This document shows, piece by piece, positions 31,368 through 41,960 of a DNA stretch of 64,000 bases. Every line of letters begins with the position of its first letter. The stretch's first letter is position 1. A program made the position numbers and the translations under genes. The stretch comes from Gemmatimonadaceae bacterium (GTDB lineage Bacteria; Gemmatimonadota; Gemmatimonadetes; Gemmatimonadales; Gemmatimonadaceae). Location of the stretch: assembly GCA_016742275.1 (NCBI GenBank), contig JACVCD010000004.1, positions 62,001 through 126,000 on the forward strand, given 5' to 3'. The notes below the pieces were generated by a model, which saw only the letters and a list, made by a program, of their open reading frames with translations, did no database searches and was not told the DNA's origin.

Positions 31368-32300
31368 TCAGCTCAGCGATTCGAGATGCACGAGCACCGC
31401 CTGCGCCACCGCTTCTGGTGCGTAACCGCCTTCGAGTGCACTCACGACACGACCACCACACCAGTGCGATGCGCGATCCACCAATGCACGCGTCATGTGC
31501 CGCACATCGTCGAGTGTCAGCGTGAACGCACCGAGTGGATCACCCGCCAGACAATCGAATCCGGCGCTGATCAGCACGAGATCCGGTGTGAAATCCTTGG
31601 TGGCGGCGTCTATCGCCGCATAGAGCGCGTCGAGATAGCGCTGTGGCGCCAAGGCTGGCGGCATTGGCACATTCCACACGTTGCGATGGAGTCCACGATC
31701 ATCTGCCGCACCGGTGCCAGGATACCACGGCCACTGATGCATGCTCACGAAGCGAATGCGTGAATCATGCTCCACCAACGCCTGTGTTCCGTTGCCGTGA
31801 TGCACGTCCCAGTCGACAATGAGCACACGTTCGCAGGCATGCCGTGCAATGGCATAGTGCGCGGCAATGGCCACGTTCCCGAACAGACAGAAGCCCATGG
31901 AGCGATCACGTACCGCGTGATGCCCCGGCGGACGGACTGCACTGAAATTACGAAGCGCTTGTCCGGAGAACGCGAGATCGACACCATCGAGTACACATCC
32001 CGCGCCGGCCGTCACCGCGCCCCAGGAACCACTGCTTACTACGGTATCCGGATCAAGACGCCCACCACCCTGCTCCACCGTGTGGCGGACCTGCGCGATA
32101 TAGGCACGATCATGCGCCAATGCGAGTTCGTCTTCAGTGGCGTGACGTCCCTCAATGTGCTGCAGCGCTTCGAACAGATCGAATCGATGTTTGAGCGCGC
32201 GCGGAATCGCGACCAGGCGCCCGACATGTTCGGGGTGTTCCCAGCCCGTGTCGTGCTGTCCACAATCCGAATGCGAAAGCAGGGCGACGCGTGTAGTCAT
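31368..32300 (-). CDS. Histone-deacetylase-family (acetylpolyamine-type) hydrolase
   Basis: 310 residues of the arginase/deacetylase fold. Motifs include RPPGHHA near 123, DWDVHHGNGTQ near 155 (zinc Asp and His) and the catalytic-site loop SAGFDCLAGDPLG near 245. The opening SDCGQHDTGWEHPE is typical of bacterial class II-like deacetylases. Substrate could be acetylated polyamines, proteins or small amides. Cytoplasmic, and a little separated from the cluster gene upstream. Confidence 0.92.
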   Translation of the reverse strand: MTTRVALLSHSDCGQHDTGWEHPEHVGRLVAIPRALKHRFDLFEALQHIEGRHATEDELALAHDRAYIAQVRHTVEQGGGRLDPDTVVSSGSWGAVTAGAGCVLDGVDLAFSGQALRNFSAVRPPGHHAVRDRSMGFCLFGNVAIAAHYAIARHACERVLIVDWDVHHGNGTQALVEHDSRIRFVSMHQWPWYPGTGAADDRGLHRNVWNVPMPPALAPQRYLDALYAAIDAATKDFTPDLVLISAGFDCLAGDPLGAFTLTLDDVRHMTRALVDRASHWCGGRVVSALEGGYAPEAVAQAVLVHLESLS

Positions 32301-32342: not shown

Positions 32343-33797
32343 TCAGCGCGCACCTCGCAAGCGACGCGATCCCCACTCGAAACACAGGAGCCCCAGCGCC
32401 AGCACTCCAAGCCACGGAGCAAGATGACGCGAGTCCCGTGTTGAACGTGTGGGGCGCACCGCATCCTGACCAGAGGTGGGGCCACCAGAAGTCGTCCGGG
32501 CAGGACCAATCCACGAAACCAGATCGGCATACGGCGCGCCAGCACCAGGATGTGGATCACGGCCCAGCGGATCACGACCTACCGGTGCGGCCGCTACAGC
32601 CCCCACAGCCGAAAGTGTGTTCCGCCACCAGGCACGATGCGCATCAATACCGTCATCGCGCCCCTCCATGCGCCAGCGCCACAGCTCTCGATAGGCTACA
32701 GCCAGCACGCGACCGGCGCCGCGGCGACGCGCCACCATCACGGGTTCGTCATGGCCATGACCACCACCGGCATCACCTGATACTTCCTGCAGAACGACAG
32801 CGTCGGGTGCAGTTCGCAGTTCCCAGGCATCAAGACCAGACAGCGGGGCTTCCGTAAGCAGAGCACCGGCAATGCCTCCGCGGCGCTCCGTAGCCACTGC
32901 TGGACGCATGGCAGACAGCGCGGGAATACGCAGTGCATCGCCGAGCAGGATCAAACCGCCACCGGCGTCGACAAAGCGCTGCAGACCGGTACCGTCCACC
33001 GCCACACTGTCCGTCACGACAACGGCCGCATATCGCGTGGTATCGAGCGGCGTGGCCGGAGCACCGAGCGTGACCTGGGCCGTGGGCGCAACGCGCACGG
33101 CACCATCCACCTTCCACCCCAGTTCTTCGAGTGCCGCAACGGTGAACTTGTACTCCCACCCTGGAACGCCAAGGACACGCACCATGCGCACGCGCGTGGA
33201 ATCGGGCGTATCGAGCGACACCGTGCTCGCGCGACCGGACACGGTGAGTGGCCAGGTGGCAGAACGCACCCGCCAGGACGATGGAGTGGTCGCAGATTCT
33301 GTTGGCACCGAATCGAGCACACCACCAGCGTCGCGCAAGACCAGTGCATGGTGGTGACCGGAACTGCGCACGAGCAACTCGTTGCCTGGAGTCGCTACAC
33401 GAGACACTGTCGCAGCGAGGGTCGCGTCTCGCGCCGAATCCGGAACGAGCGCCCAGGCAACGGACACTCCCGACAACGGGAGTCCACCAAGCAATGCCCG
33501 CGAAGAATCACCGGGAATGCGAGAGAGACCCAACAGCAGCGTATCGGTACGCACAGAGTCACGCGGCTCCGCACCGCCACGTACGAGATGACGCAACACC
33601 ACGGAATCCAGCGACTGCGCGCCAGATGAGACAGCCTGAGTGATACGCGGCATTCCCGCAGCACTGGGCGACGCACCGGTCCACATCAACCAGGACGCCC
33701 CAACGATCGCCCCAAACGCCACGACTCGAGCTACGCGCTCAAGTACGATACGGGTCGCATGGACACGTCTCACGGGCACGTCAGCGCGTGAGTGCAT
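32343..33797 (-). CDS. Membrane protein with glutamine-amidotransferase-like periplasmic region (MoxR cluster)
   Basis: 484 residues. A hydrophobic segment near residues 23-45 and another at the C-terminus (WLGVLALGLLCFEWGSRRL) bracket a large extracytoplasmic region. The stretch around 235-275 (YAAVVVTDSV ... FVDAGGGLILLGD) resembles the class I glutamine-amidotransferase-like fold seen in membrane proteins next to BatA and DUF4159 genes. No catalytic Cys-His pair is evident there. The ATG lies 17 bases inside the DUF4159 gene, implying translational coupling. Exact function is unknown. Confidence 0.65.
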   Translation of the reverse strand: MHSRADVPVRRVHATRIVLERVARVVAFGAIVGASWLMWTGASPSAAGMPRITQAVSSGAQSLDSVVLRHLVRGGAEPRDSVRTDTLLLGLSRIPGDSSRALLGGLPLSGVSVAWALVPDSARDATLAATVSRVATPGNELLVRSSGHHHALVLRDAGGVLDSVPTESATTPSSWRVRSATWPLTVSGRASTVSLDTPDSTRVRMVRVLGVPGWEYKFTVAALEELGWKVDGAVRVAPTAQVTLGAPATPLDTTRYAAVVVTDSVAVDGTGLQRFVDAGGGLILLGDALRIPALSAMRPAVATERRGGIAGALLTEAPLSGLDAWELRTAPDAVVLQEVSGDAGGGHGHDEPVMVARRRGAGRVLAVAYRELWRWRMEGRDDGIDAHRAWWRNTLSAVGAVAAAPVGRDPLGRDPHPGAGAPYADLVSWIGPARTTSGGPTSGQDAVRPTRSTRDSRHLAPWLGVLALGLLCFEWGSRRLRGAR

Positions 33798-34413
33798 ACA
33801 CCACCAGATTCACGGCGAACTTGGTGTTGTCCACGGATAGAAAACGCTTGTTGTCCGGATGGAAACTCCACTCCGAGCTGTAATCCTTGTTGGAGTACAG
33901 CACACGGATACGCCCATCGCGAACGACTGCATCAAGCTGTTCATGCACGAGATTGTCGCCCCACCCATTCATCTCATGCGAGGTGGTTGGTGGACCATTT
34001 TCGAACACGAAGAAACAGCGATACAACTCGTGGGAATTCGGGAGTGGCAGAAGCGGTCCGGCTACGCGCCCGATCTCTTCACGCACCGTCTTGTGAAATG
34101 CTCCGTCCACATCATGGTTGTGGTCGTCGACAAACAGCAAACCGCCACGTGTGAGATAGCGCCCCAGTGTCTCCGCTTCCCGAGTGGTGAACCGCACAGG
34201 CAAGTGGCCGGTGAGATAGAGCAGCGGATACTGAAAAATTGCATCCGAAGCCAACGGCACGATCACACCTTGCGGACGCACCGGCAGTGAGGTGTAACGC
34301 GCAATCGAGTCGATGACATTGGCCGGCACCAGCGGCGCCGAATCCCAGTCACCCGACTCATATTGCGCCGTGGCAAACACGAACGGCGCCGCGATTTCGC
34401 TCTCGGCGCTCAT
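33781..34413 (-). CDS. DUF4159 domain protein
   Basis: 210 residues. The DUF4159 pattern is seen in PLLYLTGHLPVRFTTREAE, YLTRGGLLFVDDHNHD and the acidic/aromatic ending around RVLYSNKDYSSEWSFHP. This domain is usually found with MoxR/DUF58/BatA-type genes, as here. No signal peptide or membrane segment is clear, so the protein is probably soluble. It begins four bases inside the preceding DUF4175-like gene (ATGA). Function is unknown. Confidence 0.8.
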   Translation of the reverse strand: MSAESEIAAPFVFATAQYESGDWDSAPLVPANVIDSIARYTSLPVRPQGVIVPLASDAIFQYPLLYLTGHLPVRFTTREAETLGRYLTRGGLLFVDDHNHDVDGAFHKTVREEIGRVAGPLLPLPNSHELYRCFFVFENGPPTTSHEMNGWGDNLVHEQLDAVVRDGRIRVLYSNKDYSSEWSFHPDNKRFLSVDNTKFAVNLVVYALTR

Positions 34414-36611
34414 GGCGTGCCTCCGCTGCCCCAGGGCGCACTGACACCGCGCTGCACATTGCCAAGCACACGACGCGCTTCCATCACCGGCACTGTGATG
34501 TCGTTGCCACCAGCCAAGGCATCGAGCACACGCGCCAGTGCTCCAGCAAACGCGGGTGCATCAGCAAGCGATTCCGCACGCAACAGCGCCAGCGAGTCGC
34601 GAACTATGCCAGCATTCTCCGGCCGAGCTGCCGCCATCTCCACCGCACGAACCAACCGGGCATCACGCTGCGCGTCCTGTTGCGCCAGACGCACGCGGGC
34701 CGATCGCGGGAGTGTTTGCCCAGTATCCTTTCCGATCAATCGCACCTTGGCGATGTCGACAATGACCTGCGGCGGACGCCCTCGCAGGTACAGTCGACTT
34801 GCTGCACGTGAACGCTCGATGGCCTCGAGGGCGCGCTCCATGGCGGGAATTGCGCCATGGGGATCGCCCTGCTCCAGTGCACGGCCAGCATCCCACATCG
34901 CATTGTAGGCTTCGAGCAGCGGCTTGTTAATGGCCACGATGGGTGAGTCATTGCCCTCTTCGAGCATACCCGACGTGCTGTTGGTGCCCATCGCCAACTT
35001 GCCGCCCTGCGCGTCTACTCCATGATCATGCCCGTCACCGGCATAGTGCGCATGCTCGGCGCTGGATTCGCCACTGAGCCTTTGGAATACCACATCACCA
35101 ACCGCCAGCCGGAGGCGCGCCTGATCCTTCGCGAGTCGCAATGATTCCCGCACCACTTCTGCACGCGTGAGCCGACGCTGACGTGCGTCCAGCTTCTGCG
35201 TGAGCATGAGCAGCATGCGCTGGCTCAACAGCGACGAATCCACAGCCGGCGGCGGCGCTGGTTCCACCGCCACCGAGTCATACTCGGCGGCGCGCGCAAT
35301 GCGGAACGCGCGTGTTTCACTGCTGCCAAATTCGCGCGAAGCCAGTGGATGTGCATCGCGGGCCACCGCCCGTAGATGCACCACGTCTCCTGGCTGCAAC
35401 TGATACGCGGCAAGATTGAAGACACCACGCCAGGTCACATCTCGAGCTCCAGCGCCGAACTGCTGCGCCGCGACCGTCACCGTGCGCACGGTGAATCGTT
35501 CACCTTCACCTGAGCTCACAATGAGTTCGAAGTGTGCGCGCGCCACACCCAGGTCATCGTGGGCGCGAGCGAGCAACGGCAACTCGCCAACGGCTGCACG
35601 AAACACACTATCGCGCGCCGGTAGTTCGAGAGTCACACGAGGAACCGAATCGCGAACGCCTTCGACAATCAACAGACGTGACGTGCCACCACGCGAAACA
35701 CGTAGCGCCTGTGGCGACTCGTTGGCCACGATCTGCAATCGCCATGCGTCGTCATCAGGCGCACGCGAAACCGCAACAGCCTTGTCCTGTGTGATCGCAC
35801 TGGAGTCGGCGGCTCCACCTATCGGTACGAGCATGGCCTGCGGGCTATCGCCATCCCCGGATACTGAGACACGACTCCCGCTCAACGCCTGAACCGACGT
35901 CACATCCTCGTACGATGCGGACGCGCGTCCCGTGTATGCCGGTGGAGTTACCGTGACCTGCCAGCGTCCCAGCGGATTCGCTCGCGCAGACTCGCCACCG
36001 ATGGCTTTCCCGCCCACTCCAGCGGATGCGGCCATTTCACGTAGCGAGGGCGCCATCTGCGGCACCACGATCAGCAGAGCCAGCGCGCCGAGCGCAAACG
36101 ACAGCGACCCGCGCCACAAGCTCCAGCGTCTTTGCGACAGCGCCCGATCAACCGGTACGCGGGCAAGCTCACGCCGCGCGGCTTGCTCCAGTGCAATATC
36201 TGACGCAGTGGCCGCAGCAGGGCTTGGCACGTTTGACTGCAATGCACGTTCCACCCACGTCACCAACGTGTGTGTCGGTGTACCGGCGCCTTGCTCTTCC
36301 ATCCAGAGCGCCACCCGTGGCAGCGATATGGAGTTCCGTAGCGTGTGCCAGCGCGCGTAGAGCACGGCAAGACACGCAACGGCAACCGTCGCAATCCGGA
36401 GCAGCCAACGCGCACCTGCTGCCAGTGGCCACGCAACAAGCAAGGCGCGCCATAGGAGCGTGGCAGCAAGCGCGGCTCCCAATATCAGCAGGAGGACATG
36501 CACTTGCCCATCACGAACAAGCGTGCGCTGTGTGCGCGCAACCTGGGCAAGCAGCGCCGCAGAATCTGCGGTATTTCCGGAACGACTGCCCACATCCGCG
36601 CGTGCTGTCAT
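34410..36611 (-). CDS. DUF4175-like large membrane-anchored coiled-coil protein
   Basis: The ATG at 36611 overlaps the BatA stop by four bases (ATGA), so I take it as the start (733 residues). Two hydrophobic segments lie near residues 38-95. A long region with IgG-like beta strands (LPARDSVFRAAVGELPLLARAHDDLGVA) follows, and the C-terminal third is helical with many Arg, Gln and Glu (LTQKLDARQRRLTRAEVV), a likely coiled coil. This layout is that of the DUF4175 family. It is part of the MoxR/BatA operon. Role unknown, presumably envelope stress or assembly of periplasmic complexes. Confidence 0.75.
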   Translation of the reverse strand: MTARADVGSRSGNTADSAALLAQVARTQRTLVRDGQVHVLLLILGAALAATLLWRALLVAWPLAAGARWLLRIATVAVACLAVLYARWHTLRNSISLPRVALWMEEQGAGTPTHTLVTWVERALQSNVPSPAAATASDIALEQAARRELARVPVDRALSQRRWSLWRGSLSFALGALALLIVVPQMAPSLREMAASAGVGGKAIGGESARANPLGRWQVTVTPPAYTGRASASYEDVTSVQALSGSRVSVSGDGDSPQAMLVPIGGAADSSAITQDKAVAVSRAPDDDAWRLQIVANESPQALRVSRGGTSRLLIVEGVRDSVPRVTLELPARDSVFRAAVGELPLLARAHDDLGVARAHFELIVSSGEGERFTVRTVTVAAQQFGAGARDVTWRGVFNLAAYQLQPGDVVHLRAVARDAHPLASREFGSSETRAFRIARAAEYDSVAVEPAPPPAVDSSLLSQRMLLMLTQKLDARQRRLTRAEVVRESLRLAKDQARLRLAVGDVVFQRLSGESSAEHAHYAGDGHDHGVDAQGGKLAMGTNSTSGMLEEGNDSPIVAINKPLLEAYNAMWDAGRALEQGDPHGAIPAMERALEAIERSRAASRLYLRGRPPQVIVDIAKVRLIGKDTGQTLPRSARVRLAQQDAQRDARLVRAVEMAAARPENAGIVRDSLALLRAESLADAPAFAGALARVLDALAGGNDITVPVMEARRVLGNVQRGVSAPWGSGGTP

Positions 36612-37894
36612 GTGCGAAGCCGCCATTCGAGCAGAAGCGCGCCGATCGCAACAGCCAGCAATACCAGCGTCCACACGGAACGCACCGGAATTGCAGAGGG
36701 ATCTGTAATGGCGCGCAGGGTACGCACCTCCGCTGGGCGGTTCACACTCGAATCACCAGCCTCCACACTTGCCAGGGAAGCTGTTGGTAGAGTCGTCGCC
36801 TCGCACGTTCGCACGACAGCATCCAGCATTCCACGCGCATGCGGAGAAAGCAGCAGATCGCTTCCCGGTGACACAACCACTGAGACCTGCACCTCGCAGA
36901 ACTCGGCGCCTCGACGCGCAATCGCCGCCGGCGTTCCGTCGTTCCACCAGGCCACCGTACGCCAGCGTGCAGAGTCAGTGTCCGATGATGCGGGGACCAC
37001 TACAGGTGCCGAAGACACGCGGACGAATGGCCCGATCAATGTCTGCCCTTGAGCCGATACAGCACCCGCCGTGTCCGCATTGGCTGTGCGCAGCCAACCA
37101 CTGGGCAAACCGGACACTGGCCAATGCACTTGCACACTAACGCCGTCTACCAATGCCGTCCTGGCCGTAGCGCTGTCACCACGATCGATATGCACTTTGC
37201 GCCCAGCCTGCTGAGCGCGACTGGTCGACGGATAGGCTAATCGCATGGCCGCCATGACCGGATCGTCAGGCGTGGCATTGGAAAACTCTACGGCCACCGT
37301 AGGCGTCAGCGCCGAATCCGTGTCACGCGCACCTGCGGTAGCAAGCGTGATATGCCCCGGCCACCGCGAACGCCATGCGTCCCACACCCGCCGTTCCGCA
37401 ACATGTGGACCCGTCAACACGGTCAGAGCAAGCGTTTCCACGCGCGGCAGATCCTGCAGGACACTCGGCACTTCGCGGAATGCACGCACGATGGCCACAC
37501 CGGGGTCCGTGGCAACACCGGATACACGGCGCCACTGCACGCTCGTATCGCCCGCGCTACTCAACCAACGCACACTGTCCGATGCGACCACCGAGTCCGG
37601 CAATGCACCGTCAACCAGAATGAGATGCGCGTGCCGCGAGCGATCGCCGTAACAACGCGCACCACTCAACGCGAGACCGATGCATAGCAGTGCGAGGACC
37701 CGCAGCGCCAACAACAACAGATCACTGGGGCGCGGTTGACGTGCCACTGCTCGCGCCGTCGTCGGAGGCACAAAGCGGGCAGTCGGCAACAACAAGTCAG
37801 GTGGCTGACGTACCGAGAGCAAATGCCATGCAACCGCCACCAGTGAGGCAGCAATGCTGGCCCAGAACAACCAGGGCACGGCAAAGGTGATCAT
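36608..37894 (-). CDS. BatA-type membrane protein (aerotolerance regulator N-terminal domain)
   Basis: 428 residues. The first 80 residues match the BatA N-terminal membrane domain: FAVPWLFWASIAASLVAVAWHLL, a PPDLLLPTARFVPP linker, then a second hydrophobic helix DLLLLALRVLALLCIGLALSG. The central region is extracytoplasmic, with no MIDAS (DxSxS) motif, so a von Willebrand A role is doubtful. A third hydrophobic helix closes the protein (WTLVLLAVAIGALLLEW). It overlaps its neighbours by four bases on both sides, making it the centre of a tightly coupled operon. Confidence 0.82.
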   Translation of the reverse strand: MITFAVPWLFWASIAASLVAVAWHLLSVRQPPDLLLPTARFVPPTTARAVARQPRPSDLLLLALRVLALLCIGLALSGARCYGDRSRHAHLILVDGALPDSVVASDSVRWLSSAGDTSVQWRRVSGVATDPGVAIVRAFREVPSVLQDLPRVETLALTVLTGPHVAERRVWDAWRSRWPGHITLATAGARDTDSALTPTVAVEFSNATPDDPVMAAMRLAYPSTSRAQQAGRKVHIDRGDSATARTALVDGVSVQVHWPVSGLPSGWLRTANADTAGAVSAQGQTLIGPFVRVSSAPVVVPASSDTDSARWRTVAWWNDGTPAAIARRGAEFCEVQVSVVVSPGSDLLLSPHARGMLDAVVRTCEATTLPTASLASVEAGDSSVNRPAEVRTLRAITDPSAIPVRSVWTLVLLAVAIGALLLEWRLRT

Positions 37895-38790
37895 GTGCTC
37901 GTCGCCAAACCAGCAATAACACCGCGCACCGCACGCGCGGGAATTTCCGAGGTGCGCACTTCACGATAGCCGCATCCGGCCGCACGCCAGCGCACCGCCA
38001 CGTCCTCCCGGAACGCTGCAAACGCCTCCTGATAGGCCTCACGTCCACGTGCGGGCATAATGTTGCCACGCCCATTCATGTCGGGGTCGCGAGCGAAGAA
38101 CGTTCCGGCCGGCGGATCGATCTCGGCGACCGACACGACATGTACAAACTCGATGATCGCACCAGCGACCACCTGCGCCGATGCAATCTTGAGCAGCGCA
38201 TCAAGATCGCCCAGCGCATCACTCACAATCACGATACGACTGCGAGCCGACAACGAAGAGAGCAGCGGTGCCAACGCCGCACCACCTGACGTCTCATGCA
38301 CCGTTTGCGCACCAAGTACCCGTGCCACGTCGGCGATCGTGCCGCGACGTGCGCGCGGCGACAACCGGGCCGGCGCCGATGGCATGCCGACAACAAGCCC
38401 CACCGGATCGCTGGCCGCGTGTGCAACCGCAGCCAGCCCCATGGTGATCTGCCGAGCCATGTCCCATTTACTGAGCACATTGCTCGCAGCGTCGGCACCA
38501 CGGAACGCCATGCGCCCGCTCCCATCGACCAGAAACCAGGTATTGAGCAATGCCCGGTCTTCACTCACGCGCACGAATGCACGATCGCTGCGCGCCAGCA
38601 GCTTCCAATCGAGCGTCTTCGGATCGTCGCCCTGACGATAGACTCGATACTCGGTGAATTCTCCTGCCGTGCCACGCTGGATTGAACGGTGCACACCCGC
38701 AGGCGCGGCACCGACCGCGCGGCGCGCTGGCCAACGCACGCCGCGCAACGCGTCGAGCAGCGGACCGTAAGCCGAAAGCTCAGGAATCAT
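37891..38790 (-). CDS. DUF58 domain protein
   Basis: 299 residues. The DUF58 signature is present: GTAGEFTEYRVYRQGDDPKTLDWKLLARSDRAFVR, then an acidic-residue-rich NTWFLVDGSGRMAF run with a DxSxxM-like metal-site pattern of the von Willebrand A fold. These proteins work with MoxR ATPases in metal insertion or folding of periplasmic complexes. No membrane segments, so it is the soluble member. Encoded 15 bases after moxR and four bases into the BatA gene. Confidence 0.9.
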   Translation of the reverse strand: MIPELSAYGPLLDALRGVRWPARRAVGAAPAGVHRSIQRGTAGEFTEYRVYRQGDDPKTLDWKLLARSDRAFVRVSEDRALLNTWFLVDGSGRMAFRGADAASNVLSKWDMARQITMGLAAVAHAASDPVGLVVGMPSAPARLSPRARRGTIADVARVLGAQTVHETSGGAALAPLLSSLSARSRIVIVSDALGDLDALLKIASAQVVAGAIIEFVHVVSVAEIDPPAGTFFARDPDMNGRGNIMPARGREAYQEAFAAFREDVAVRWRAAGCGYREVRTSEIPARAVRGVIAGLATST

Positions 38791-38805
38791 CTGCCGAGCC
38801 GTTGA

Positions 38806-39795
38806 CTACAACGCGCTCGATGGCTCGGCCACGTGCGCCAGCAGGGCTTCGATGATGGGCTCTGCTGTCACGCCATCCGCTTCGGCTGCGAAGTTCGGCA
38901 GAATGCGATGACGAAGTACTGGCATGGCGACACGGCGGATGTCCGCAGGTGAGACAGCAGCGCGACCAGCCAGCAACGCCGAAGCCTTGGCGCCGAGGAT
39001 GAGTGCCTGTCCTGCGCGGGGACCAGCGCCCCAACGCACATACTGCCGCACCAGCGCTGGAATCTGGGCTTCCTGCGGACGCGTGGCGCGCACCAGACGC
39101 GCCGCGTACTGCAGCAAGAGGTCACTGCATGGCATGGCACGCACTGCTCGTTGCAGTGCGAGCGCATCTTCACCGGTGAACACAGGCACGATAGGATCGC
39201 CACCCGAACCAGTGGTCGCGCGCAGGATGGCCACTTCGTCCGCTTCGGTGGGATATCCCACGCGAATGTCGAACAGGAATCGATCGAGCTGTGCTTCAGG
39301 CAGCGGATACGTGCCTTCCTGCTCGATGGGATTCTGCGTTGCGAGCACAAAGAACGGCTCGGGCAAACGCATGGTCTGTCCGGCAGCGGTCACGCTGTGT
39401 TCCTGCATGGCCTCGAGCAGCGCGGCCTGCGTGCGCGGTGGCGCGCGATTGATTTCGTCGGCCAGAACGATGTTGGCGAACACCGGTCCCTGAACAAACC
39501 GAAAGGCACGCGAGCCGCTGCCGCTCTCTTCGAGAATTTCGGTGCCCGTGATATCGCTGGGCACGAGGTCTGGCGTGAACTGGATGCGACGAAACACCAG
39601 TTGCATGGCGTCTGCCACCGACTTGATCATCAGTGTCTTGGCGAGACCTGGCACACCAACGAGCAGGGCATGCCCGCCAGCAACGAGCGCCATGAGAATT
39701 TCTTCGACCACCACTTCCTGACCCACCACGCGCTTGCCAATCTGGGCACGGAGTTGGCGGACAGATTCGATCAGACGCTCGGTATCGTGAGACAC
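38806..39795 (-). CDS. MoxR-family AAA+ ATPase
   Basis: I chose the GTG at 39795 (329 residues), which fits the family; longer starts add an unlikely Cys/Arg-rich leader. Walker A is GVPGLAKT, and Walker B with the second motif is VLADEINRAPPRTQAALLEAMQE. The sensor and MoxR-specific ATQNPIEQEGTYPLPEAQLDRFL are all present. MoxR proteins act as chaperone-like ATPases with DUF58 and von Willebrand A proteins. This gene heads the operon moxR-DUF58-BatA-DUF4175-DUF4159-membrane protein. Confidence 0.94.
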   Translation of the reverse strand: MSHDTERLIESVRQLRAQIGKRVVGQEVVVEEILMALVAGGHALLVGVPGLAKTLMIKSVADAMQLVFRRIQFTPDLVPSDITGTEILEESGSGSRAFRFVQGPVFANIVLADEINRAPPRTQAALLEAMQEHSVTAAGQTMRLPEPFFVLATQNPIEQEGTYPLPEAQLDRFLFDIRVGYPTEADEVAILRATTGSGGDPIVPVFTGEDALALQRAVRAMPCSDLLLQYAARLVRATRPQEAQIPALVRQYVRWGAGPRAGQALILGAKASALLAGRAAVSPADIRRVAMPVLRHRILPNFAAEADGVTAEPIIEALLAHVAEPSSAL

Positions 39796-39901
39796 GCACG
39801 ACTCGGGTGGGGAGTCAACATGCAGGGCACAACGCCTGCAATCACATGCAACAGGCGGCCCGGGAAGGTGTGATGGAGCGCGTGCAGAGAGGCTGCAGAA
39901 C

Positions 39902-40237
39902 TCAGCGCAGCGGTCGACGCCGCCGCGGCGTGAGGAACAACGTCGACGCATCCTGCGCGCCGCACTGTTGCAGCGTCATGTTCTCATCGTGCACTTCCGC
40001 GCCGTGCAGCTTGACGAGCCACGTATCCAGCTGCGCGACATCCGGCAGCAGGTTGCTCATGGCAGCTGCCTTGATATCGCGAATACGCGAACCCGGCGCA
40101 CATTCGACACGCACCGCATCGAGCACTTCGGCAGCCTGCACGCGCACCGTCCACGACGTGGTGCCGTCCTGCGCGACACGAAGCACTTCAGGTCGCACAC
40201 GCAGCGCGTTCACGAAATGCGAAGTCACCGTGCTCAT
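39902..40237 (-). CDS. Small protein with ubiquitin-like beta-grasp pattern
   Basis: 111 residues. Residues 28-104 follow the order of a ubiquitin-like beta-grasp fold: strand TVRVQAAEVLDAVRVE, helix IRDIKAAAMSNLL, strand DTWLVKLHGAEV, then DENMTLQQCGAQDASTLFL, which parallels the ubiquitin turn and last strand. The C-terminus is a basic PRRRRPLR with no Gly-Gly, so conjugation is not predicted. It overlaps the next upstream gene by four bases. The call is pattern recognition, not homology to a named family; no function can be given. Confidence 0.5.
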   Translation of the reverse strand: MSTVTSHFVNALRVRPEVLRVAQDGTTSWTVRVQAAEVLDAVRVECAPGSRIRDIKAAAMSNLLPDVAQLDTWLVKLHGAEVHDENMTLQQCGAQDASTLFLTPRRRRPLR

Positions 40238-40581
40238 GATACCGGCTCCGCTTCACCGGACTCGAGCAACGGCGCGACGACCTCTACACGCGGCGGCGCA
40301 GGCGGCAACGACGAGAGGAAGCGTGCAATCTGCTGATCGAACATGTAGCTCGACCCGGACACGGATGTGCCATCGGGCGTCTCGCGTGCCGCGAGCGCGA
40401 TCTCCTCACCACCCTGACCACGAAGTACGACATGCGTCGGGCCCTGCTTCTCGAGAAACGCCGAATACACGCCGCCACGCTGCGAGAAAAAACGCACCGC
40501 TTCCGAAAGAACATCGGCAACAGGAAGCGACGTGAGGCGCTCCTGCAACTGGCGAGACGATTGCTGATGAGACACGGACAT
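40234..40581 (-). CDS. Conserved-looking small protein paired with the ubiquitin-like protein
   Basis: I use the ATG at 40581 (115 residues). The core (LPVADVLSEAVRFFSQRGGVYSAF, then GPTHVVLRGQGGEEIALAARETPDG) is amphipathic and contains likely strands. A Pro-rich segment PPAPPRVEV precedes the C-terminus. No signal peptide or membrane span. The overlap with the ubiquitin-like gene (ATGA) implies the two are made together and may form a complex. No family recognised. Confidence 0.55.
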   Translation of the reverse strand: MSVSHQQSSRQLQERLTSLPVADVLSEAVRFFSQRGGVYSAFLEKQGPTHVVLRGQGGEEIALAARETPDGTSVSGSSYMFDQQIARFLSSLPPAPPRVEVVAPLLESGEAEPVS

Positions 40582-40647: not shown

Positions 40648-40670
40648 GCAACACACTAGTCGTGTGTTGC
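40648..40670. terminator. Hairpin at the end of the GAF gene
   Basis: A perfect 9-bp stem GCAACACAC/GTGTGTTGC with a 5-base loop contains the stop codon of the GAF gene. No T tract follows on the minus strand, so it may be a weak terminator or processing site. Confidence 0.35.
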
Positions 40671-41960
40671 GGCTACCGGAAACACGAGGCGAATCTCCTG
40701 TTCTCCGGCATCAGGGCCTGCCTCCATTTCGAGACGCAGATCCCCGCCCAATCGGCTCACCAATGCACGCACCAGTGGCAGGTCGATGACCGCGACCGCC
40801 TGCTTCACGGTCGCGTACGGACTGCCGGGCTCCCAGTCGAGCGCAGCACTCCGCACCTGAAGTATACGCAAGGGATCCGGGGGAAGTTGGGGCTCGGGAC
40901 GATACGCGCCCCCTGCACTCTTTGTGGAAACCGGCTCCAATACGTCGACGCCGCGCCAGCCGACGGTCAGCGACAGAAATCCGCGACCCAGCCTGATCTC
41001 GACCCGTACCTTGCCGTCAGATGAACAGGCACCACACACCCCAAGGCCAAGTGCCAGCTCCAGGGCCTGCCTGAGCAGCGCTCGGTCCGTCACCATCGTG
41101 GGCAGCAGCACTGTCGGCTCATCCAGCTGGATGGGGATCATGGGTGCGCGGGCTCGCCATACCGCAACCGCTTCACGCACCGGCTCGCGGGGATCGACAT
41201 CATCACCACGCACAGGCGTGGAAGCGTCCGGAATGTTCAGCAGCGCAGCAGAATGCGCGGACAGCGTATCGATTGCCCGCAAGCGACTCTGCGCGTCGCG
41301 CACATCATCGGGCTGCGACAGACGCACCAGCGCATCGACCAGCATGCGCTCATGTCGTGCACGCGTGTGCTCGCGACTCGCCCACTCATTGGCCTGCCCT
41401 TCGAGTTCCGCATTCGCGTCAGCCAGTGCGGCATTGGCGCGACGCAAGGCATCTGCCCGGCGCGCCTTGTCCGTCACCGCGGCCAACTGATCTGCCACCA
41501 GACGCACCAACGTGCGCTGCTCATCGGTGACACGTCTGGCATCGGCAAAGTAGAATGCCACCGCACCGATTGGCCCATCAGCCGTTTCGAGTGGCGCTGC
41601 GAGGATGGAACGGAACCCCAGTTCACGCGCGACATCGTACCACGGCTCCAGCTCAGGATCCGACAGCAGATCCGGAACTTCCACCATCCGCCGCTCGGCC
41701 ACCGCCAATCCACTCGGACCGTCACCTACACGCACACGCAGCGCGCCAATCCACGCGCGATACGGCGCGGGCCACTCGTGCTGCGCTACCGGACGCAACA
41801 ACTCACCGTCACTGCCCAACTGCATGACGAGCGAAAATTGCGCACCAAGCAGCGGCGTTACCCGATCGAGCGCAAACTGCTGTACTTCACTCGGATGGTC
41901 GGCCCGAAGAAAGGCGTGTGCCACTTCGCGAACGGCCAGCAGCTCGCGCGAATCTGTCAC
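40656..41960 (-). CDS. GAF-domain protein with degenerate histidine-kinase-like C-terminus
   Basis: 434 residues. Residues 1-160 form a GAF domain (FALDRVTPLLGAQFSLVMQ, RSILAAPLETADGPIGAVAFYF). A heptad-rich segment LRRANAALADANAELEGQANEW (about 172-195) is a coiled coil, followed by a dimerisation-like helix, then an ATPase-like C-terminal part. The phospho-accepting His motif is not convincing, and the N, G1 and G2 boxes are missing or unrecognisable, so it is unlikely to be an active kinase. It begins with GTG overlapping the SDR stop by four bases. It may sense a ligand and bind a partner. Confidence 0.75.
   Translation of the reverse strand: MTDSRELLAVREVAHAFLRADHPSEVQQFALDRVTPLLGAQFSLVMQLGSDGELLRPVAQHEWPAPYRAWIGALRVRVGDGPSGLAVAERRMVEVPDLLSDPELEPWYDVARELGFRSILAAPLETADGPIGAVAFYFADARRVTDEQRTLVRLVADQLAAVTDKARRADALRRANAALADANAELEGQANEWASREHTRARHERMLVDALVRLSQPDDVRDAQSRLRAIDTLSAHSAALLNIPDASTPVRGDDVDPREPVREAVAVWRARAPMIPIQLDEPTVLLPTMVTDRALLRQALELALGLGVCGACSSDGKVRVEIRLGRGFLSLTVGWRGVDVLEPVSTKSAGGAYRPEPQLPPDPLRILQVRSAALDWEPGSPYATVKQAVAVIDLPLVRALVSRLGGDLRLEMEAGPDAGEQEIRLVFPVAATHD

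Follow-up and report, generated by a model that had tools for sequence, protein, structure and literature searches.

Two small genes lie side by side on the minus strand of the 64,000-nucleotide stretch of Gemmatimonadaceae DNA analysed here (the window). How might their products work? We judge it an even bet that they form a coupled pair whose members act together, P1 being a ubiquitin-like protein (Ubl) that is not conjugated and serves as a non-covalent adaptor, and P2 its likeliest mate or co-adaptor. P2 (40581–40234) comes first, then P1 (40237–39902); the open reading frames overlap by four bases, as the first-pass annotation of the window had described for this pair of small proteins. 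The features of the locus are as follows.

40234..40581, minus strand: P2 (P0002), the partner protein of 115 residues, predicted beta-alpha-beta-beta-beta-beta-alpha, helix-grip/START-like, the name of the fold being given with low confidence
40402..40422, minus strand: RGQGGEE motif of P2, residues 54–60, from the ortholog alignments
40234..40237, minus strand: overlap of the P2 stop with the P1 start, ATGA, four bases, from the ORF coordinates
39902..40237, minus strand: P1 (P0001), a ubiquitin-like beta-grasp protein of 111 residues by its predicted model, fold matches and the profile matches of its orthologs
39926..40153, minus strand: beta-grasp core of P1, residues 29–104, with AlphaFold2 strands at 29–35, 40–46, 73–77 and 99–104 and a helix at 52–63
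39905..39925, minus strand: basic C-terminal arm of P1, RRRRPLR, residues 105–111, from column conservation and a model without secondary structure here

Are these genuine genes? The window sits on contig 12 of a genome of 4.57 Mb. When this genome and 99 relatives were searched with single sequences, P1 was matched in 82 of the 100 and P2 in 91; a profile search found P1 in 182 of the 298 genomes of a sample of the phylum. The median dN/dS was 0.133 for P1 (51 ortholog pairs) and 0.157 for P2 (73 pairs), the pairs being restricted to about 72–97% protein identity. Because of these widespread matches and low dN/dS values, we conclude that P1 and P2 are real genes, both under purifying selection. 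A scan of the locus for promoters and terminators gave nothing useful.

Do the two genes keep company elsewhere? Both are present in 254 of 288 loci, a redundant count, since several retrieval routes drew the same genomes and a few loci were fetched for other reasons. The first-pass annotation had called for a check on gene order, and in these 254 loci the P2–P1 adjacency is kept. P2 occurs without P1 in 23 loci and P1 without P2 in one; no fusion of the two was found in the 288. Within the window's order, Gemmatimonadales, the pair is common. The contigs of relatives were scanned with P2 patterns alone, and 80 of the 206 relatives were kept, of which one (L120) is titled Candidatus Kuenenia while the others are Gemmatimonad bacteria or name no group. 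Two alignments (A3 and A4) hold 57 of 69 loci with both genes, two loci (L126 and L175) having been dropped and near-identical ones removed. The four-base overlap was counted by eye in 36 of 52 distinct pairs with starts chosen by homology. It was found in 100 of 110 distinct pairs when the P1 start was placed as close as possible to such an overlap, a choice that biases this second count upward. The ATGA overlap suggests that translation of P2 and P1 is coupled.

The partnership has its exceptions. One genus (g13) gave no P1 match in eight listed genomes, P2 being retained in the two examined, and in one g13 genome a deacetylase-like gene directly follows P2. Conversely, a single genome (G088) has P1 and no match to P2. 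Neither gene, therefore, strictly needs the other. The partial correlation between the distance matrices of P1 and P2 was 0.33 overall and 0.44 within clades (31 loci). For P1 and the downstream deacetylase-like gene it was 0.40 both overall and within clades, about equal, so co-evolution lends the pairing of P1 with P2 no special support.

What kind of protein is P1? Its AlphaFold2 model (pLDDT 86.7, pTM 0.77; 58 sequences in the input) has the element order of a beta-grasp, with the beta-beta-alpha-beta-beta topology of ubiquitin. The best Foldseek match of this model is ubiquitin (E 3.3e-5, TM 0.80 by target length), and a bacterial BilA complex stands at rank 4. With VIA-align, Z lies at 10.5–11.0 in the best 50 rows, which include ubiquitin, SUMO, ISG15 and BilA; these four share the fold of P1 over about 73–84 residues at a sequence identity of 7–23%. 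The VIA-align matches mostly span model residues 24 to 110 or so, and the longest among the best 50 rows, to an archaeal ubiquitin, covers 87 residues. The first-pass annotation, which took the downstream protein for a ubiquitin-like beta-grasp, had named beforehand a different predicted fold as the result that would overturn it; the model came out beta-grasp, in agreement with the matches in the PDB.

Profile searches reach the same families through the orthologs. At E up to 1, the DUF2604 profile matched 15 of 23 orthologs from the window's clade (clade I; best 1.7e-5), the YukD profile 12 (best 3.5e-7) and the ubiquitin profile five (best 8.2e-4); the YukD profile also matched three of 12 orthologs from a sister clade (clade II; best 2.1e-4). 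P0001 itself, on the other hand, falls below the curated cut-off in all three Pfam families that it touches (for DUF2604, PF10790, its score is 16.3 bits and the cut-off 25), and the YukD profile does not match it at E up to 10. Neither P0001 nor P0002 has a match in NCBIfam or PHROG. In the sequence-based search the E-values of polyubiquitins are inflated by their repeats; ordinary single ubiquitin chains gave about 0.05–0.07.

For P2, the AlphaFold2 model (pLDDT 84.9, pTM 0.71) is beta-alpha-beta4-alpha, its last predicted helix stopping at residue 91. VIA-align gave Z up to 9.7, and the Foldseek matches are weak, at E 4.4e-3 or worse. Adaptin appendage and KA1 domains, Aha1/START/CoxG-type helix-grip proteins and a mixture of others make up these weak fold matches, and it is with low confidence that we call the predicted fold a compact helix-grip/START-like one. 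P0002 has no match in Pfam; the single matches that 21 P2 orthologs gave there are at chance level (best E 0.042) and concern unrelated families, and P2 sequence profiles found no credible match in the PDB. Residues R54–E59 are invariant in an alignment of 21 sequences, as are R54, G55, G57 and E59 in 58. The RGQGGEE motif of clade I, to which they belong, is absent from the P2 of the sister clade. Over 110 distinct pairs the median pI is 9.4 for P1 (range 5.3–11.2) and 5.5 for P2 (4.3–9.5).

How does P1 end? The C-terminus of P0001 is TPRRRRPLR: the last residue is Arg and there is no Gly-Gly. The basic tail without Gly-Gly remarked on in the first reading of the window is a property of the family, GG being found within the last 12 residues of none of the 110 distinct clade I orthologs. 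Any G at all occurs within the last eight residues of seven, and the one P1 that ends in Gly (L175) is truncated by the end of its contig. The usual clade I terminus is R-R-R-x-P-[VL]-R, ending flush with the C-terminus; a loose pattern of this type fits 102 of the 110. Mean column conservation in alignment A2 is 0.77 for residues 104–111, 0.52 for the core (29–103) and 0.29 for the N-terminus; the values in A3 are 0.78, 0.57 and 0.43. By this measure the C-terminal arm is the best conserved of the three P1 segments compared, and it is a new feature here, with a form specific to each clade. The model has no secondary structure past residue 104, the mean pLDDT being 83 at residues 101–110 and 59 at residue 111.

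BilA, ubiquitin, SUMO and ISG15 are conjugated through a C-terminal Gly, which the P1 of the window's order, in contrast, lacks. Since its C-terminal residue is not Gly, conjugation of P1 by the usual route appears, from sequence, to be unlikely in this order. The genome of the window has four ThiF-domain matches and one Prok-JAB match, every one of them on a contig other than the window's, consistent with the earlier remark that no activating enzyme lies nearby, and no ThiF or JAB gene was recognized by eye among the neighbours common to relatives. Elsewhere, at 841–2364 of locus L281 (G000 contig 7, about 78.6 kb), there is a 507-residue protein with a ThiF (E1-like) domain. By eye it carries a JAB-type HTH...SxxD motif ahead of that domain, on which the Prok-JAB search is silent. 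Another gene with a ThiF domain is found 17.7 kb away, and the region may serve Ubl conjugation or defence.

What role might be played by the neighbouring genes? The neighbourhood was mapped from similarity-supported frames, the longest-ORF map being noisy at this G+C content. In the window a GAF protein lies upstream of the pair and a MoxR/DUF58/BatA operon downstream; a family scan of seven window genes agrees with the placement of the pair between the two that had been read from the sequence. Of the 22 loci from the window's own family (f1), tblastn finds MoxR in 12, in 11 of them directly after the pair, and a GAF gene immediately precedes P2 in 17. The same search finds no MoxR homologue in 18 loci of the order's two other families (L082–L099), where the next gene past the pair resembles a histone-deacetylase-type amidohydrolase. 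Upstream of P2 in families f1 and f2 lie glycyl-tRNA-synthetase-like and M3-peptidase-like genes, and the pair is followed by a histone-deacetylase-type amidohydrolase and later by epimerase-like and PriA-like genes, all of these, like the amidohydrolase of L082–L099, being named from sequence reading. Several f1 loci have the deacetylase-like gene after P1 with no MoxR between, whereas in the window the MoxR-DUF58-BatA operon (about 33781–39804, minus strand) separates P1 from the deacetylase-like gene, whose best match is at 31371. We therefore rejected a functional partnership with MoxR: tblastn found it in none of the 18 loci, and in several f1 loci it does not stand between P1 and the deacetylase-like gene. 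Apart from the pair itself, no gene common to both clades was seen as an obvious functional partner.

Two other neighbours may be mentioned. The GAF protein of the window (40656–41960, minus strand) has Pfam matches to GAF families only, and in eight of its counterparts from other f1 loci a narrow pattern picks up an H-box motif of histidine kinases (FLxNxSHELRTP type); the window protein looks like a kinase whose catalytic part this lineage has lost. At three loci (L065, L067 and L080) a small GvpF/GvpL-like (gas-vesicle) protein was noted by eye shortly downstream of P1.

If the pair is so common in one order, what becomes of it in others? A profile search found relatives of P1 in other families of the class, and in all 12 sister-clade loci examined a relative of P2 adjoins it. 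Below 1e-38 a clade II P1 profile picked out 25 genomes, all from families f4 and f10, a set that consists of strong P1 matches and leaves f4 and f10 genomes without a match outside the count; P2 and P1 are both present and adjacent in all 25. Profile–profile comparison gives probabilities of 99% for P1 and 97% for P2 that the proteins of the two clades are homologous. Here the four-base overlap is the exception: among the 12 loci it belongs to the start reported in two (L234 and L239) and agrees with the coordinates in L231, and seven others have the genes side by side, 1 to 37 bases apart. Three loci (L228, L230 and L231) had their starts trimmed by hand before the sister-clade P1 sequences were aligned, and the P2 alignment (A6) holds nine of the 12. 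The C-terminus of the sister-clade P1 is not Arg-rich. It ends in Gly in 25 of 25, in the form IR-x-[YF]D-x-x-H-x-x-[FY]-x-G, one having L for I.

Relatives of P2 without P1 were found in fifteen further loci: one is a g13 genome (G194) and 14 come from other families of the class, where the genome search gave 6e-9 to 7e-4. At 11 of 13 loci (L213–L225, the exceptions being L217 and L219) the P2 relative that stands alone has close to it a gene that by eye looks like one for an HU-type DNA-binding protein.

Which known system does the pair resemble? By layout it most resembles, on analogy, the proteobacterial operon of RatA (START) and RatB/RnfH (Ubl), with overlapping genes in the same order: a START-type protein first (putatively so in P2, whose weak fold matches include START/Aha1/CoxG-type proteins among others) and a small Ubl second. 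Like P1, RnfH lacks Gly-Gly and has a basic stretch near its C-terminus. In the passages cited, the gene neighbourhood of RnfH is conserved, includes SmpB and a START-domain gene, and shows no apparent transfer system (PMC1779556), and RatA is now a Coq10-like lipid chaperone whose toxicity was an artefact of a mis-annotated start (PMC11988751). That P2–P1 is a diverged RatA–RatB (YfjG–RnfH) operon, a START lipid/quinone chaperone with its Ubl regulator, is nonetheless unlikely. The Ub-RnfH profile (PF03658) exceeds its cut-off in none of 61 genomes, with scattered matches at E 0.09–1 in 11, and RnfH is absent from the families listed for the 23 clade I and 12 clade II P1 orthologs. RatA is annotated at 158 residues, whereas the last predicted helix of the shorter P2 ends at residue 91. 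Comparison of P1 and P2 with single E. coli sequences by hhalign, a weak test, gave nothing, and a separate SRPBCC gene lies over cut-off elsewhere in the window genome. In E. coli K-12 ratA is followed by yfjF with an 11-base overlap and smpB adjoins them, whereas smpB was not recognized beside P2–P1. Ubiquinone use is, to our knowledge, not expected in Gemmatimonas, and we count this against the RatA–RatB reading. The link of RatA to ubiquinone is drawn in the passages cited (PMC11988751). P1 may, by analogy, work like RnfH; we do not file it under that name, since it has no RnfH profile match. Still less can be said for P1 as a YukD/EsaB-type accessory of a type VII-like export system, which we consider very improbable. 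Both are small single-domain ubiquitin folds, and it is to YukD that some P1 orthologs show their best profile similarity; the T7SS EccD profile, too, matches four of 23 (best 6.7e-4). Against this, P0001 lacks a YukD match, as noted above. The search for WXG100 (PF06013), positive in two of 14 genomes, including Bacillus subtilis, as a control, found no match in the window genome at E up to 0.001, and no export gene was recognized in the seven scanned window genes or, by eye, among shared neighbours. P1 differs, moreover, in its conserved C-terminal arm and coupled partner. YukD itself is reported to have the ubiquitin fold and to be unable to be conjugated, and the exact role of YukD/EsaB is still called unclear, in the passages cited (PMC5845737).

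Might the arm bind RNA instead, making P1–P2 a nucleic-acid or ribosome-associated pair? A C-terminus that is rich in Arg, strongly conserved and predicted to have no secondary structure would suit such a role, and for TGS domains, perhaps also for RnfH, RNA binding has been put forward (cited passages of PMC1779556). But the sister-clade tail is not Arg-rich, which argues against RNA binding, and the tRNA-synthetase-like gene upstream in f1 and f2 has, by eye, no translation gene beside the sister-clade pair to answer it; we give the idea a small chance. More doubtful is the view that P1 is a conjugated or sulfur-carrying Ubl, the sister-clade C-terminal Gly being the active end and the Arg tail of Gemmatimonadales derived. 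The fixed motif ending in Gly and the ThiF-domain and JAB matches of the window genome speak for it. Complete P1 proteins of the window's order, however, have no terminal Gly, the ThiF and JAB matches lie off the window's contig, no such gene was recognized by eye among the relatives' shared neighbours, and the sister-clade Gly would stand, by alignment, some ten residues past the last conserved strand, farther than in ubiquitin. Another bacterial ubiquitin-fold protein, BfUbb of Bacteroides fragilis, appears among the Foldseek matches of P1 (structure 8hm2); P1 is far more distant from ubiquitin than BfUbb, which is secreted (PMC5705921) and 63% identical to human ubiquitin (PMC3352274).

We return to P2–P1 as a coupled pair with P1 as its non-covalent Ubl adaptor. 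P2 and P1 would be translationally coupled, most likely with a joint action of their products. In this order P1, with its predicted ubiquitin fold, is probably not conjugated; its beta-grasp would supply a binding surface, and its conserved Arg-rich arm may dock into a partner. The likeliest partner or co-adaptor is P2, with its putative compact helix-grip/START-like domain. The P2 stretch RGQGGEE ends acidic and the P1 arm is basic. A P1–P2 complex is the simplest idea, because the genes are coupled and the proteins opposite in charge, with wide pI ranges in each. The first-pass annotation had proposed a non-conjugating binding module. Its fold, its pairing and the want of a usual conjugatable tail have stood; binding and non-conjugation we infer as the best reading.

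Is this, as was also suggested, a kind not described before? Bacterial ubiquitin-fold proteins that work outside conjugation, such as YukD and RnfH, have been known for some 20 years. With YukD/EsaB, RnfH and TmoB on record, the suggestion is too strong: P1 is a new family of an already known kind, the non-conjugating bacterial Ubl. TmoB, for its part, is a Ubl subunit of a monooxygenase in the passages cited (PMC1779556). A description of the P1–P2 pair of Gemmatimonadota was not found among the best matches in the open-access literature on the phylum.

What the P1 family adds is an alignment, deep and paired, in which the conserved C-terminal arm comes in two clade-specific kinds, and this makes arm and partner directly testable as one functional unit. 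The two kinds also allow a bolder reading, to our minds quite unlikely, in which one Ubl scaffold keeps two alternative C-termini, a non-conjugatable R-R-R-x-P-V-R docking arm in one clade and in the other a single Gly that is possibly activated and joined to targets. If that were true, Gemmatimonadota would hold a Ubl caught between covalent and non-covalent use, its dedicated partner retained in both clades. And if the sister-clade Gly is active, the family would bear on how the ubiquitin fold comes into covalent use or passes out of it.
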